From positions 496,001-560,000 of the forward strand of contig NZ_CP073078.1 in NCBI RefSeq assembly GCF_018135625.1: a stretch of DNA of 64,000 nucleotides, in the 5' to 3' direction. Numbering within the stretch: the stretch's first letter is position 1; every line of letters begins with the position of its first letter. Position numbers and translations under genes: made by a program. The notes below the pieces were generated by a model that was not told where the DNA came from, ran no database searches, and saw only the letters and a program-made list of their open reading frames with translations. Below are positions 35,802 to 40,655 of the stretch, in pieces. This DNA is from Phenylobacterium montanum (GTDB lineage: Bacteria > Pseudomonadota > Alphaproteobacteria > Caulobacterales > Caulobacteraceae).

Positions 35802-36047
35802 ATGATTCCGATCGATCAGGTCTATGGCAAGCTGACCGATGTCTTCCGCGACGTGTTCGAGGACGACGAGCTCGAGCCCACGCCGGAAATGACCGCAGAG
35901 GACGTGGACGGGTGGACCAGCCTGGCGCACGTACGTCTCGTTTTGACCATCGAGGAAGCCTTCGGCATTCGCTTTTCGGCGGCTCAGGTCTCGTCCATGG
36001 CCAACGTGGGCGATCTCGCCACGACGATCCAGAAGAAGCTATCCTGA
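35802..36047 (+). CDS. Dedicated acyl carrier protein
   Basis: This is an 81-residue, acidic, four-helix acyl carrier protein. The phosphopantetheine serine is Ser40 in DGWTSLAHVRL; the canonical Asp-Ser-Leu is replaced by Thr-Ser-Leu after a Trp, as in many specialised carriers. The C-terminal helix IRFSAAQVSSMANVGDLATTI has the usual pattern. It is not the fatty-acid AcpP, which differs in sequence and lies with fab genes. I place the start at the ATG at 35802; an upstream in-frame ATG at 35760 would add 14 residues that do not fit the fold. The FkbH-like gene follows after 80 bases, and the carrier is most likely its partner. Confidence 0.9.
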   Translation: MIPIDQVYGKLTDVFRDVFEDDELEPTPEMTAEDVDGWTSLAHVRLVLTIEEAFGIRFSAAQVSSMANVGDLATTIQKKLS

Positions 36048-36127
36048 CCCCAGCCACCGATGACGGGTGGCCCGGAACCGGACTATGAGCTTCACCGTTA
36101 CGTTCACAGGGTTTGAGGGACGGGGGG

Positions 36128-38044
36128 ATGATGGCTGACGATCTCTATCTGGGCTTGGCGTGGCTGCCGCCCGTAGAGGATTTTCGTGCAGCTTGCGCAG
36201 CCCTGCTGGATGGAGAGGGCGAGCAGGGCGCGGCCGTGCGTGGCCTGGCGCGCCGTCGTCTGAACGAGACCCAGCTGAACCGCCTGGCCAACACCATTTC
36301 GGCGCTGCGGGAGCAAGGCCGCTCGCTCGCGCCGCTGACCCCGTTCAAGCTGGGGATCGTCGGCAACGGCACGCTGGACCTGATCGGTCCGGCCCTGACG
36401 GCCAGCGCAGCTCGACACGGCCTGGATCTCAGCTACGTCACGGTTCCCTACGGTGCGGCGGTGCAGGAGGCTGTTTCCCCGGATTCGGCGCTGAATCGGG
36501 CGGGATGCGATGCGGTCTTGATCGCCCTTGACCATCGCGGCCTGCCGCTCCGGCCGAGCCAGGCCGATATCGACGGGGCCGAGCAATCGGTCGCCGACAG
36601 CGTCGCCCTCATCACAGCGATCCGTCAGGGCCTGCGCGCCGCCAGCGGCGCCCGGGCAATCGTCCAGACCCTGGCGGCTCCGCCGGAGGCCTTGTTCGGC
36701 AGCCTGGACCGCCAGGTCCCGGGCGCAATGCGCCGGCTGACGGACCGCTTCAACGAGGCGCTCGCGGCGAGCCTCGACGACGGCGATGTGCTGTTCGACG
36801 TGGCCGCCCTGGCCCAGACCGTGGGGCTGTCGACCTGGCATTCGCCGGTGCAGTGGAACATGGCCAAGCTGCCCTTCGCCGGCGCCTGCCTGCCGATCTA
36901 CGCCGAGCACGCCGCGCGCCTGGCCGCCGCCATGCGCGGCAAGGGCGGGCGCTGCCTGATTCTCGACCTCGACAACACCTTGTGGGGCGGCGTCATCGGC
37001 GACGACGGGGTCGAGGGGATCGTGCTGGGCGAGGGGGACGCAACGGGCGAGGCCTTCCTCAGCGTGCAGCGCATGGCGCTCTCGCTGCGCGAGCGGGGCA
37101 TCGTGCTGGCGGTCTCGTCCAAGAACGACGAGGCCAACGCCCGAAAGCCGTTCCGCGAGCATCCCGAGATGCTGCTGAAGGAAGACCATATCGCGGTGTT
37201 CCGCGCCAACTGGGACGACAAGGCAAGCAACATCCGCCAGATCGCCGAGGAGCTGAACCTGGGCCTGGACGCCATGGTGTTCCTGGACGACAACCCGGTC
37301 GAGCGCGGCCTGGTGCGCCGAGAATTGCCCCAGGTGATGGTTCCGGAACTGCCGGAAGACCCGGCGCTATACGCCCGCACCCTGGCCGCAGGCGGCTATT
37401 TCGAGGCGGTGACGGTTTCTGACGAGGACAGGAAGCGCGCCGAGTTCTACCAGACCAACGCCAAGCGAGCCCAGGCCAAGGTCGCGGCCACGGATATCGA
37501 GGGCTACCTCAAATCCTTAAACATGGAGATGACCGTCCAGCCGTTCGACCCGGTCGGGCGTGCGCGCATCGTCCAGCTGATCAACAAGTCCAACCAATTC
37601 AACCTGACCACCCGCCGCTACGACAACGCCGACATTGAAGCCTTCGAGCACGACTCCCAGGTCCTGACGCTGCAGGTCCGGCTCGCCGATATCTTCGGCG
37701 ACAACGGCATGATCAGCGTGATCATCTGCCGTCCACGCGGCGCGGAGGTGTGGGAGATCGACACCTGGCTGATGAGCTGCCGAGTGCTGGGGCGCGGGGT
37801 CGAGCGGATGGTGCTGAACGAGATCCTGCTGCAGGCCCGCGAGCGGGGCGTCAAGACTCTGGTCGGGGTCTATCGGCCGACCGAACGCAACGGCATGGTC
37901 AAAGACCACTATCAGGGCCTCGGCTTCACTCAGCTTTCCGCCAGTGACAGCGGTGAGACCGAGTGGGTGCTGTCGGCCACCGCTGAAGTCCCGCTGGCCC
38001 CGATGACGGTGGTGCGGCAGGGCTTTCTCTCGGCGGCCGCCTGA
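36128..38044 (+). CDS. FkbH-like HAD-IIIC family protein (acyl-carrier charging enzyme), three-domain form
   Basis: This is a 638-residue protein. The N-terminal 250 residues or so are an SGNH-like or FkbH N-terminal domain with LGIVGNGTLDLIGP. The HAD-IIIC domain carries Asp280 and Asp282 in LDLDNTLWGGVIGDDG, the SSKND motif II, and FLDDNPVERGLV. Residues about 450-620 are GNAT-like, with SNQFNLTTRRY and RVLGRGVERMVLNEI. FkbH proteins take the glyceryl group of 1,3-bisphosphoglycerate, remove phosphate and load it as a thioester on an acyl carrier. The neighbouring ACP supports this here, though the acyl group could differ. An ATG at 36131 is an alternative start. MBOAT follows after six bases. 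Confidence 0.88.
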   Translation: MMADDLYLGLAWLPPVEDFRAACAALLDGEGEQGAAVRGLARRRLNETQLNRLANTISALREQGRSLAPLTPFKLGIVGNGTLDLIGPALTASAARHGLDLSYVTVPYGAAVQEAVSPDSALNRAGCDAVLIALDHRGLPLRPSQADIDGAEQSVADSVALITAIRQGLRAASGARAIVQTLAAPPEALFGSLDRQVPGAMRRLTDRFNEALAASLDDGDVLFDVAALAQTVGLSTWHSPVQWNMAKLPFAGACLPIYAEHAARLAAAMRGKGGRCLILDLDNTLWGGVIGDDGVEGIVLGEGDATGEAFLSVQRMALSLRERGIVLAVSSKNDEANARKPFREHPEMLLKEDHIAVFRANWDDKASNIRQIAEELNLGLDAMVFLDDNPVERGLVRRELPQVMVPELPEDPALYARTLAAGGYFEAVTVSDEDRKRAEFYQTNAKRAQAKVAATDIEGYLKSLNMEMTVQPFDPVGRARIVQLINKSNQFNLTTRRYDNADIEAFEHDSQVLTLQVRLADIFGDNGMISVIICRPRGAEVWEIDTWLMSCRVLGRGVERMVLNEILLQARERGVKTLVGVYRPTERNGMVKDHYQGLGFTQLSASDSGETEWVLSATAEVPLAPMTVVRQGFLSAAA

Positions 38045-38050
38045 ACAGTC

Positions 38051-39487
38051 ATGGATGTCCCGTCATTTCCGTTCCTGGCCTTCGCCGCGATCGGCGCGCT
38101 GGCCTACAACCTCTCCCGGGCCAGGTGGTGGCGGATATCGGTGCTGCTGGTTTGCAACCTGGCCTTTCTGGCCAGCTTCAGCCACCAGGTCACGGCCTTC
38201 ATCCCCTATGCCGGCTTCGTGCTGCTGGGCTACGCCTTCGTCTTCGCCATTCAGAACGGCGCGCCGAAGCAGCTTCGACCCATAGCGATCCTCACCATCA
38301 TCGGCCTGTTCTTCTGGCTGAAGAAGTACAGCTTCCTGCCCTCGGCGACCTATCTGACCTTTCCCTATCTGGCGATGGGGCTGTCCTATGTCTTCTTCCG
38401 CATCCTGCACCTGGTCATCGACGCGCATGACCAGGAGACCATCGGCCGGGTCGGGCCGCTCGCCTACCTGAACTACACCTTGAACTTTCACAGCATCGTT
38501 TCGGGACCGATCCAGCGCTACGAGGACTATGCGCGGATGACTGACGGCGAACCGGCGCCGCTGGACGTGGTCTCGGTCGGTATCGCCCTGGAGAGGATCG
38601 TACGCGGCCTGTTCAAGGTGATGGTGGTCTCGCACCTGCTGTCCATGGCGCAGAAGGCGGTGATGACCCAGCTGCTGTCGCCGGAGACGCTCCTGGAGCA
38701 TATCCGCGACGGGGCGCTGATCACCGCGCTCTATCCGATCTATCTGTTCTTCAACTTCTCCGGCTACGTCGATTTCGTCATTGGGGTGGCGCGGTTCTTC
38801 CGCATCGAACTGCCGGAGAACTTCAATCTTCCATACTCGTCCGCCAGCTTCATCGAGTACTGGAGCCGGTGGCACATCACCCTGTCCAATTGGCTGAAGA
38901 CCTATGTCTACAACCCGCTCCTGATGGTGCTGATGCGGCGGGTGCGCTCGAAGACCGTTGGCCCTTATCTCGGCGCCATATCGCTGTTCGTGACCTTCTT
39001 CCTGATTGGCGCCTGGCATGGTCGGACCTCGGAATTCATGGTCTTCGGCCTCCTCAACGGAGGCGGTGTCGCAGCCAACCAGGCCTATCGGATCTTCATG
39101 GCCGACCGGATGGGGCGCAAACCCTTCGCCCAGCTCGGCCGCAATCCGCTCTATATTTCGCTGTGCCGGGGCCTGACCTTTACCTGGGTCGGCGTCACCC
39201 TGCTGTGGTTCTGGTCCGACTGGGGCCTGCTCGCCCAGATGACCCGCGCGCTGGGGCCGGTCGGCGTGGTCGGCGCATTCCTCGCGATCTTTGTCTCGGC
39301 CACCCTGGTGCTGGAGGCGATGGTCCGAGGCCGCAAGGCGCTGCTCTCGATCGGACGGGCGGATGCGCCGGTGTTCACCTCGCGCTATTTGCGCACGGCC
39401 TGGGCGACGGCGCTGGTGGTGTTCGTGGTGGCGTTCCAGACGGTGATGGATTCCCCCGCGCCCGACATCGTCTATAAAGCTTTCTGA
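38051..39487 (+). CDS. MBOAT family membrane O-acyltransferase
   Basis: This is a 478-residue polytopic inner-membrane protein, about ten to twelve helices, of the AlgI/DltB type. The conserved region SFIEYWSRWHITLSNWLKTY contains the family Trp-His, and the invariant catalytic His is near residue 324 in LIGAWHGRTSEF. FNFSGYVDFVIGVARFF is the AlgI/DltB-like FSGYSDMAIG counterpart. Members carry acyl groups from a cytoplasmic donor through the membrane to a sugar, polymer or lipid. DltB takes its acyl group from a carrier protein, which gives a precedent for using the ACP encoded here. It starts six bases after the FkbH-like gene; the SGNH gene follows after 13 bases. Confidence 0.92.
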   Translation: MDVPSFPFLAFAAIGALAYNLSRARWWRISVLLVCNLAFLASFSHQVTAFIPYAGFVLLGYAFVFAIQNGAPKQLRPIAILTIIGLFFWLKKYSFLPSATYLTFPYLAMGLSYVFFRILHLVIDAHDQETIGRVGPLAYLNYTLNFHSIVSGPIQRYEDYARMTDGEPAPLDVVSVGIALERIVRGLFKVMVVSHLLSMAQKAVMTQLLSPETLLEHIRDGALITALYPIYLFFNFSGYVDFVIGVARFFRIELPENFNLPYSSASFIEYWSRWHITLSNWLKTYVYNPLLMVLMRRVRSKTVGPYLGAISLFVTFFLIGAWHGRTSEFMVFGLLNGGGVAANQAYRIFMADRMGRKPFAQLGRNPLYISLCRGLTFTWVGVTLLWFWSDWGLLAQMTRALGPVGVVGAFLAIFVSATLVLEAMVRGRKALLSIGRADAPVFTSRYLRTAWATALVVFVVAFQTVMDSPAPDIVYKAF

Positions 39488-39500
39488 AGGGCGGGCGGGG

Positions 39501-40655
39501 GTGAAGACCGACGTGGATCCGGTTTCCGTCAGATCCGGCGCGCTGCCTGGGCGCGACTTGATCCTGTTGCCGTTGATCAGCCTGCTGACCATCGTGTTCC
39601 TCGTCGGCGCGGCCGAACTGGGGGCGCGCTGGGCCTGGCCTGAGGAGAAGGCGGATTCCTGCCTGGCCAAGCATGGCGAGCTGGGCTACCGCGCCCGGCC
39701 GAATTGCGTCTCGCGCACCAAGGCGGCGGAAGGGCCGTGGGTCGAGAACCGCTACAACGACTGCGGCCAGCTGTCGGCCAGGTCCTGCCATGCGCCCGCG
39801 AACGGCGCCCTGCGCATCGCCGCGGTCGGCTCCTCGATCGGATACACCTATCTCGTGCCCTGGAAGGATTCCTGGCAGGGGCTTATCGCCGAAAGCCTGG
39901 GCAAGGCCTGCGGGCGACCGATCGACTTCCAGAGCTTCGCCGGCCTCTACAACATGAACGAGGCGGCGATGCTGGCGCCTCAGGCCGCGGCGACCCATCC
40001 TGACGCGGCGGTGATGTTCATCGACGCCACCGACCTGTTCCAATCGCCGCCGCTGGACTTCGACCTGAACCTCGCGGCGCACAAGGACGTCGTCACCCCG
40101 CCGCCAGGCCACCTGCCGGGCTGGGAAGGGGTGAAGGACAATCTGCAGTTCAAGCGGCTGAAGGCCGACAGCCGCGCCGCCCTGATGGCCTCGCATTTCC
40201 TGTTCAAGAACGAGCGCACCTATCTCGACCTCTACCTGAAGAACGGGGACAAGGCCGATTTCCTGCGCCCGCCGCTGACCCCCGCCTGGCAGGCGCGGCT
40301 GAGGGTGCTGGACAAGGACCTGGGCTATATGGCTGACCAGCTGAAGGCCCAGAACGCACCCCTGCTCGTGGTGTTCGCCCCGCAGCAAGCCCAGGCCGAG
40401 ATCGCCTCCGGCCTCGCCGCGCCAGGGACCGACGCCTATGCCCTCGACCGGGCGGTGCAGGCGATCGTCGAAAAGCACGGCGCCCGGTTCGTCGACGCCA
40501 CGGCGCTGTTCAAGGGCGTCAAGGGCGTGGCGGCCTACTACTACCCGGTCGACGGCCATTTCAACGCCAAGGGCAATGCGCTCCTGGCCGGGGCGGTGCG
40601 CCAGGGCCTCGTCGGGGGACCTAAACCGCTCGTCACGGGTTGCGGCGGGGCGTAG
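39501..40655 (+). CDS. Membrane-anchored SGNH-hydrolase-like protein of the MBOAT cassette
   Basis: This is a 384-residue protein with one N-terminal membrane helix (about residues 16-36) and a periplasmic domain. The SGNH block I serine lies near residue 111 in AVGSSIGYTYLVPW, and the C-terminal Asp-x-His is seen in VDGHFNAKGNALLAGAV. This resembles AlgJ/AlgX and PatB-like proteins, which finish O-acyl transfer from an MBOAT protein onto a polysaccharide, or remove such groups. The GTG at 39501 is the first start after the MBOAT stop. The block II and III residues are less clear, so transferase versus esterase cannot be told from sequence. Confidence 0.8.
   Translation: MKTDVDPVSVRSGALPGRDLILLPLISLLTIVFLVGAAELGARWAWPEEKADSCLAKHGELGYRARPNCVSRTKAAEGPWVENRYNDCGQLSARSCHAPANGALRIAAVGSSIGYTYLVPWKDSWQGLIAESLGKACGRPIDFQSFAGLYNMNEAAMLAPQAAATHPDAAVMFIDATDLFQSPPLDFDLNLAAHKDVVTPPPGHLPGWEGVKDNLQFKRLKADSRAALMASHFLFKNERTYLDLYLKNGDKADFLRPPLTPAWQARLRVLDKDLGYMADQLKAQNAPLLVVFAPQQAQAEIASGLAAPGTDAYALDRAVQAIVEKHGARFVDATALFKGVKGVAAYYYPVDGHFNAKGNALLAGAVRQGLVGGPKPLVTGCGGA

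Follow-up and report, generated by a model that had tools for sequence, protein, structure and literature searches.

What do an acyl carrier protein (ACP) and an FkbH-type acyl loader do directly upstream of a membrane-bound O-acyltransferase (MBOAT) and a membrane-anchored SGNH protein? The question is raised by a 64,000-nucleotide stretch of the Phenylobacterium montanum genome (contig NZ_CP073078.1, positions 496,001 to 560,000), hereafter the window, in which four such genes lie side by side on the + strand at 35802-40655. A first-pass annotation made from the sequence had proposed that FkbH charges the ACP, that the MBOAT takes over the acyl group and that the SGNH protein attaches it outside the cell. 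This flow is supported by the acyl-shuttle motif of the MBOAT, by DltX-like open reading frames (ORFs) in relatives, by the loss of the GG loop, by a DltB-like docking helix in the window and by the link between ACP, MBOAT and FkbH in a sample drawn from MBOATs. We consider it probable (about 0.7) that the cassette is a carrier-protein-fed MBOAT/SGNH system for envelope O-acylation, similar to Dlt, in which FkbH takes the role of the DltA ligase.

In the scheme that we favor, FkbH, judging from its family, would take the acyl phosphate of 1,3-bisphosphoglycerate while its HAD domain strips the 3-phosphate, which would leave D-glyceryl on the phosphopantetheine of the ACP with no separate ATP-using ligase. 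Sequence and gene context suggest that the glyceryl-ACP would then dock on the MBOAT at its cytoplasmic helix HC, like DltC on DltB. Going by the anatomy of the proteins and a described mechanism, His323 of the MBOAT would pass the acyl group to the enzyme's own Tyr475 on the periplasmic side, and the anchored SGNH protein would accept it on Ser112 and esterify a hydroxyl of an extracytoplasmic polymer. The acceptor is most likely a surface polysaccharide or other glycan.

The loader and its carrier

Coordinates, strand and profile matches confirmed the four genes as ACP, FkbH, MBOAT and membrane-anchored SGNH protein, in that order (Table 1). The gaps between them are 80 bases (ACP to FkbH), 6 bases (FkbH to MBOAT) and 13 bases (MBOAT to SGNH), so the close packing of the last three genes that had been noticed in the first pass was measured correctly.

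Table 1. Features of the cassette and of related loci (positions are those of the window, except in the last row, where they belong to the locus named)
Feature	Position	Strand	Basis
Stand-alone acyl carrier protein (P0001), 81 residues	35802..36047	+	PF00550, 24.1 bits (cut-off 20.8)
FkbH-type acyl loader, 638 residues	36128..38044	+	TIGR01686, alignments, model and fold search
MBOAT (P0003), 478 residues	38051..39487	+	PF03062, 71.3 bits; active-site His323 in GAWHG
MBOAT residues 287-297, YNPLLMVLMRR	38909..38941	+	Alignment counterpart of DltB helix HC, where DltC docks
MBOAT C-terminal acyl-shuttle hexapeptide IVYKAF, residues 473-478	39467..39484	+	Presumed acyl-tyrosine site Tyr475; motif in a passage of PMC12148441
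Membrane-anchored SGNH protein (P0004), 384 residues	39501..40655	+	PF13472, PF16822, alignment, model
VOC proteins near FkbH cassettes	L115:9990-10457; L113:11569-11997; L114:9793-10260; L044:4527-5000		Epimerase-like, below cut-off

FkbH had been described as a protein with SGNH-like, HAD-IIIC and GNAT-like parts and with Asp280 and Asp282 in the HAD-IIIC part, and the model, the fold search and the alignment all agree with this description. No Pfam family matched it at an E-value of 0.01, and TIGR01686 matched its HAD and C-terminal parts with 311 bits (cut-off 146.65). The AlphaFold2 model has a mean predicted local distance difference test score (pLDDT) of 90.2, and its closest solved structure is 3slr (Z 41.0 over 373 residues). 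A fold search with the model placed an SGNH-like domain at about residues 71-271 (Z 15.0), a HAD-IIIC domain at about 272-430 (MDP-1, Z 16.7) and a GNAT-like domain at about 466-619 (Z up to 15.8). Asp280 (position 36965), Asp282 (36971) and Cys551 (37778) are invariant. The conserved cysteine of FkbH proteins serves as the attachment site of the glyceryl group. An alignment of 13 FkbH proteins, taken from two Streptomyces plasmid operons (L121 and L125), other biosynthetic clusters and cassettes, has D280, D282, T284, S331, K365, D387, E392, S550-C551-R552 and N588 in common; a separate FkbH alignment had 45 members. With a TIGR01686 score above the cut-off and intact HAD-IIIC and SCR motifs, the window protein is a putative FkbH glyceryl-ACP synthase. 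Passages in PMC7489565 and PMC8949500 state or propose that FkbH-type proteins place a glyceryl group from 1,3-bisphosphoglycerate on a carrier. We infer D-glyceryl as the loaded group from FkbH family membership only.

TIGR01686, the invariant residues and an adjacent stand-alone ACP are shared with the FkbH glyceryl-ACP synthases of methoxymalonyl and tetronate antibiotics. The L121 and L125 operons are of the methoxymalonyl type and hold a 3-hydroxyacyl-CoA dehydrogenase, an ACP, an acyl-CoA dehydrogenase and FkbH, with a methyltransferase listed only in L125. Unlike the antibiotic systems, the cassette has an MBOAT as partner and no polyketide synthase among the neighbors scanned, and unlike the short Streptomyces forms the window FkbH bears an extra N-terminal SGNH-like domain. 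A catalytic role for this extra domain was rejected, as the serine position of block I reads GNGT. We also rejected a polyketide role for the window FkbH, given that none of the three flanking proteins scanned is a polyketide synthase and that the association with an MBOAT is clade-wide.

The carrier serine of the ACP is Ser40 (codon at 35919). A serine occupies this position in 68/68 clustered ACPs, all of which have hydrophobic residues at +1 and +4. Five residues past it, where DltC has Glu40, lies Arg45 (35934-35936).

The MBOAT, its shuttle and the SGNH protein

How the MBOAT would be fed can be approached through DltB. According to passages of PMC11035591, DltC contacts DltB at helix HC via Met302, Val305, Ile306 and Met309, with DltC Glu40 near Lys312 and Arg317. 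When the window MBOAT was aligned to DltB (6bug, its best solved match, E 3.8e-24), these docking residues fell in FMRLVIVLMRNKVFKNR, and the window MBOAT has NPLLMVLMRRVRSKTV there. It carries L, M and M at the places of DltB V305, I306 and M309, and VLMR is identical. Many cassette MBOATs outside the clade of the window have other residues in the docking helix. Many window-type cassette MBOATs have a Glu directly after this helix, where the window MBOAT has Gly instead. The residues suggest a possible charge swap, relative to the DltC-DltB pair, between the ACP arginine and this MBOAT glutamate.

In kin genomes, MBOATs without an FkbH gene next to them have IPLGGNR or a similar sequence at the docking place. 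PLGG was found in 8/8 of these and in 0/55 cassette MBOATs, and a relaxed GG motif in 50/59 other MBOATs of a class-wide sample, again against 0/55; the Fisher value for the latter contrast, 2e-23, comes from related sequences and should not be taken as a calibrated probability. When the GG pattern was loosened and no longer restricted to the docking place, it picked out a single cassette MBOAT (L260). The GG loop may serve the binding of coenzyme A (CoA).

The class-wide sample was drawn from MBOATs alone. We hand-picked 60 stretches out of 101 places, the place in the window's own genome being excluded, and obtained 60 MBOATs (L209 gave two and L223 none; ORFs of fewer than 330 residues were omitted, and some stretches were cut by contig ends). 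Neither an ACP nor FkbH was found within up to 4 kb of 59 of them, and the sole MBOAT with an ACP, that of L202, also has FkbH. This locus is arranged FkbH-ACP-MBOAT (L202:1440-4825), with an MBOAT of 443 residues. We read the route as running from the carrier to the MBOAT on the strength of the neighboring genes, the docking helix and the absence of the GG loop, and an MBOAT working on acetyl-CoA alone is unlikely.

The histidine of the GxWHG motif was kept in 53/53 MBOATs beside FkbH relatives, the window included, and in 49 of these the last six residues read [F/I/V/L]xYxx[F/Y], strictly FXYXXF in 23. Four have no fused shuttle. One of these, L016, ends near a contig end, and the other three (L050, L070 and L071) have MBOATs of about 403 residues and one motif-ending ORF per locus, inside the operon and in the correct direction, which could encode a DltX-like microprotein. 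From their presumed starts these ORFs are 41, 40 and 33 residues long and end in IAYQQF, IAYQQF and LVYERF, respectively. None matched a Pfam family, and in L071 the stop of the microprotein overlaps an in-frame ATG of the MBOAT ORF. The motif followed by a stop occurred 76 times in 1.35 Mb on both strands, MBOAT C-termini counted in.

The SGNH protein has a single N-terminal hydrophobic helix and scored above the cut-offs of PF13472 (34.7 bits, cut-off 32.9) and PF16822 (ALGX; 27.1 bits, cut-off 26.5). These were its only Pfam families at an E-value of 0.01, with no DltD match, and it matched no NCBIfam model. In an alignment of 22 sequences Ser112 (39834) and His353 (40557) are invariant and Asp351 is not. 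The model (mean pLDDT 86.5) has an SGNH-type fold, with CgnD as best match (Z 19.3, root-mean-square deviation 4.6, 242 residues) followed by GDSL esterases with Z of at most 15.6; no DltD chain was among the 50 fold matches listed, which excludes nothing. In some other cassettes, proteins near the MBOAT have no confident Pfam match and carry SGNH-like GxS and DxxH motifs.

With the Dlt system the cassette shares a carrier protein beside an MBOAT, the active-site histidine, the acyl-tyrosine shuttle motif, the SGNH partner and, in the window MBOAT, the hydrophobic part of the carrier-docking helix. The carrier has a phosphopantetheine serine, Ser40, and an ACP lies near FkbH in 53/55 loci. The two systems differ in the loader (DltA ligase there, FkbH here), in the shuttle, which is a separate DltX in Dlt and fused to the MBOAT in 49/53 cassettes, with a separate ORF only in L050, L070 and L071, and in the basic DltB-DltC contact residues, which the cassette does not keep. 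The four cassette proteins and the three flanking proteins scanned include no DltA ligase; the search for one did not extend to the remainder of the genome. The MBOAT reached 167.9 bits against TIGR04091 (DltB), short of the cut-off of 375, and so lies outside the DltB equivalog. By membership the cassette is not a Dlt system, since it has no DltA, no separate DltX in the window, an MBOAT below the DltB cut-off and no DltD match at an E-value of 0.01.

PatA/PatB and AlgI with AlgJ/AlgX likewise combine an MBOAT with a fused C-terminal shuttle and an SGNH partner, and the SGNH protein of the window resembles AlgX enough to pass the ALGX cut-off. Such MBOAT/SGNH pairs draw on acetyl-CoA and act on envelope polymers, according to passages of PMC12148441; in that account they have no carrier protein, whereas the cassette has an ACP, and the GG loop of the IPLGGNR type found in most bacterial MBOATs is absent from cassette MBOATs (0/55). 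Our literature searches found no paper joining MBOAT, SGNH and acyl carrier protein and no description of this gene set. FkbH and MBOAT did turn up together in two papers on cyanobacterial peptides, and in excerpts of one of these the two proteins are given separate roles (PMC13122637).

Conservation of the gene set

We scanned public genomes with the FkbH protein, obtained 92 relatives and retained the best 80 loci (L003-L082). Among these best 80 of 92, FkbH was accompanied by an ACP (up to 3 kb away) in 69 loci, by an MBOAT (up to 5 kb away) in 55 and by both in 50; for the 55 loci with more than 3 kb on either side, the counts were 53, 41 and 40. The well-flanked loci were then divided by the percent identities of the initial list of relatives. 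At 57% identity or more, the ACP and the MBOAT were each present in 24/25 loci and both in 23/25; at 50-56% the ACP was present in 19/20, the MBOAT in 16/20 and both in 16/20; below 50% the ACP was present in 10/10, the MBOAT in 1/10 and both in 1/10. The whole FkbH family is thus accompanied by the ACP and its nearer clades also by the MBOAT, and the grouping of these genes is not due to chance. The first-pass annotation had asked for a check of the four-gene order: in the near clade the ACP and the MBOAT do co-occur (23/25) and are not scattered, but the order itself varies, with the SGNH gene often between FkbH and MBOAT in relatives and after the MBOAT in the window. The record titles of the relatives name Proteobacteria, Acidobacteria, Eremiobacterota, Myxococcales, Verrucomicrobia and others. 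The three proteins FkbH, ACP and MBOAT show correlated pairwise distances over 46 loci (r of 0.81, 0.68 and 0.65, with 0/2000 permutations attaining each value), where L028, L051 and any locus lacking a clustered ACP or MBOAT were omitted; this correlation does not tell co-selection from common descent.

Closer to the window, 60 kin genomes held strong relatives of its MBOAT only in its own genome and in G004, from the same genus, all remaining matches being below 100 bits. The G004 MBOAT is 50% identical to that of the window and has ACP, FkbH and SGNH genes alongside; its stretch is identical to L041 across 4896 bases. Of 250 genomes from the genus to which Sphingomonas trueperi (locus L014) belongs, 17 had a strong FkbH match (best E below 1e-140). 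Seventeen strong-FkbH stretches from 15 of those 17 genomes showed an ACP in 14 and an MBOAT in nine, and all nine MBOATs end in a shuttle-like hexapeptide; three stretches with weaker FkbH matches have an ACP and no MBOAT.

Several results weigh against our reading. The shuttle motif is present in 56/59 ordinary MBOATs without an ACP, so it supports the route from MBOAT to SGNH protein and not the identity of the donor. Four cassette MBOATs scored 158-171 bits against TIGR04091 and seven ordinary ones 158-181; as these ranges overlap, the likeness of the cassette MBOAT to DltB is local only. The basic residues Lys312 and Arg317 of DltB are not kept in the window MBOAT, the ACP position matching DltC Glu40 is Arg in 57/68 clustered ACPs, and the GG motif is also missing from 9/59 ordinary MBOATs. 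At L202, the one carrier-bearing locus of the MBOAT sample, the pattern used revealed no shuttle, whether fused or as a microprotein. Finally, L021 (58% identity, short flanks) showed neither ACP nor MBOAT in the search, and in 14/55 well-flanked loci, including L023 (57% identity), an MBOAT is missing from the 5 kb around FkbH. The earlier claim that the MBOAT is the natural recipient, with no other user of the charged ACP nearby, holds in the window, whereas these 14 relatives offer no MBOAT nearby.

A rival reading is that the two gene pairs are mere neighbors with separate jobs, the MBOAT and SGNH protein O-acetylating a glycan from acetyl-CoA and the ACP and FkbH delivering glyceryl to a lipid or small metabolite. 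MBOAT/SGNH pairs elsewhere do use acetyl-CoA (passages of PMC12148441) and have the shuttle motif too, the DltB score of the cassette is no higher than that of ordinary MBOATs, and FkbH with ACP exists without an MBOAT; yet the divergence of the proteins is correlated, the GG motif separates the two groups of MBOATs (0/55 against 50/59), the window has a DltB-like docking helix, and ACP and FkbH came together in the sampling that started from MBOATs. We regard separate jobs as quite improbable, and retain the carrier-fed MBOAT as the better explanation.

As for the setting of the cassette, it is flanked by genes for an amidohydrolase (-), a gamma-glutamyltransferase (+, 33 bases downstream) and astB (-) in a genome of 5.65 Mb, whose only PF03062 match is the cassette MBOAT. 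A second, distant FkbH-type protein of 694 residues is encoded in the same genome (G000:C1:69513-70541, L002; 36% identical over 343 residues), with neither ACP nor MBOAT found within its 4-kb locus. A diverged set of MBOAT, unknown protein, ACP and FkbH was seen on pSymB of Sinorhizobium meliloti (L112/L115), where FkbH matches as two separate pieces in strain 1021 and as a single one in strain 2011. The protein between MBOAT and ACP in this set (L115:12407-13636) is annotated as a TonB-dependent receptor and has no Pfam match.

The acyl group, its acceptor and the possible reach of the cassette

The same machine could handle another three-carbon acyl group, for example lactyl or methylated glyceryl, in which case the route from carrier to MBOAT would be right and the word glyceryl wrong. 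Within seven genes of FkbH we found tailoring-like protein clusters, namely MaoC-SDR proteins at 11 loci, methyltransferases at 12 and Glyoxalase_4/VOC proteins at 14 (single-linkage clusters, each named from one representative, at loci with or without an MBOAT). The four VOC proteins tested scored 28-58 bits against methylmalonyl-CoA epimerase, below the cut-off of 114.95. The MaoC-SDR proteins, of about 478 residues, occur at L018, L019, L026, L029, L031, L033, L035, L036, L061, L065 (the representative) and L070. In bryostatin there is a sequence leading to lactyl from glyceryl. Going by such neighbors, a VOC protein could epimerize the alpha carbon of glyceryl-ACP to give L-glyceryl, the MaoC-SDR protein possibly turns carrier-bound glyceryl into lactyl, and the methyltransferases may give O-methylglyceryl. 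The window cassette itself holds no tailoring gene and its FkbH keeps the residues of the methoxymalonyl-type FkbH proteins, so that a different acyl group is unlikely there and D-glyceryl stays our preferred assignment.

With regard to the acceptor, 113 of the 201 ORFs flanking 36 loci were scanned; their proteins matched 106 families, of which 25 were listed. Among the matches listed were MaoC (7), SDR (6), glycosyltransferase families (3-4 each), ALGX (3) and polysaccharide export (2). Reading the acceptor from the neighbors was rejected, and the lack of a conserved acceptor gene among the flank matches listed must be added to the points that weaken our interpretation. It also agrees with the SGNH protein placing the acyl group on a lipid, a lipoprotein or a secreted small molecule, as the 113/201 flanking ORFs scanned include no conserved gene for an acceptor. 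However, the MBOAT/SGNH pairs treated in passages of PMC12148441 act on envelope polymers, glycan genes are among the flanks, and one cassette on a plasmid (L113) has sulfotransferase, acyltransferase and epimerase genes in its vicinity. A non-polysaccharide acceptor is rather unlikely, and a surface glycan remains the acceptor that we favor.

Gellan is a polymer of interest here, as it bears L-glycerate (passages of PMC9104527). A review states that only one acetyltransferase, outside the operon, has been verified for gellan (passages of PMC4443731), and the excerpts of both gellan reviews name no glyceryl transferase gene. Excerpts of two papers on Sphingomonas polysaccharides (PMC5399355 and PMC11340318) mention acyltransferases and no glyceryl gene. 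We rejected placing the cassette in a gellan producer, as the scans showed no more than its presence in genomes of the genus of Sphingomonas trueperi.

More broadly, the cassette could represent a general, undescribed class of envelope decoration with carrier-bound hydroxyacyl groups, fed directly by the glycolytic intermediate 1,3-bisphosphoglycerate, in which add-on genes alter the group and which is maybe a route to gellan-type L-glyceryl in Sphingomonas; we put this forward as a tentative proposal that is more doubtful than the carrier-fed mechanism itself. If true, it would tie central carbon metabolism directly to the chemistry of surface glycans, through a widespread cassette whose loader needs no adenylating ligase. 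The docking helix as opposed to the GG loop would provide a local sequence test for carrier-fed MBOATs, and the cassette would offer candidates for the genes behind glyceryl substituents like the ones on gellan.

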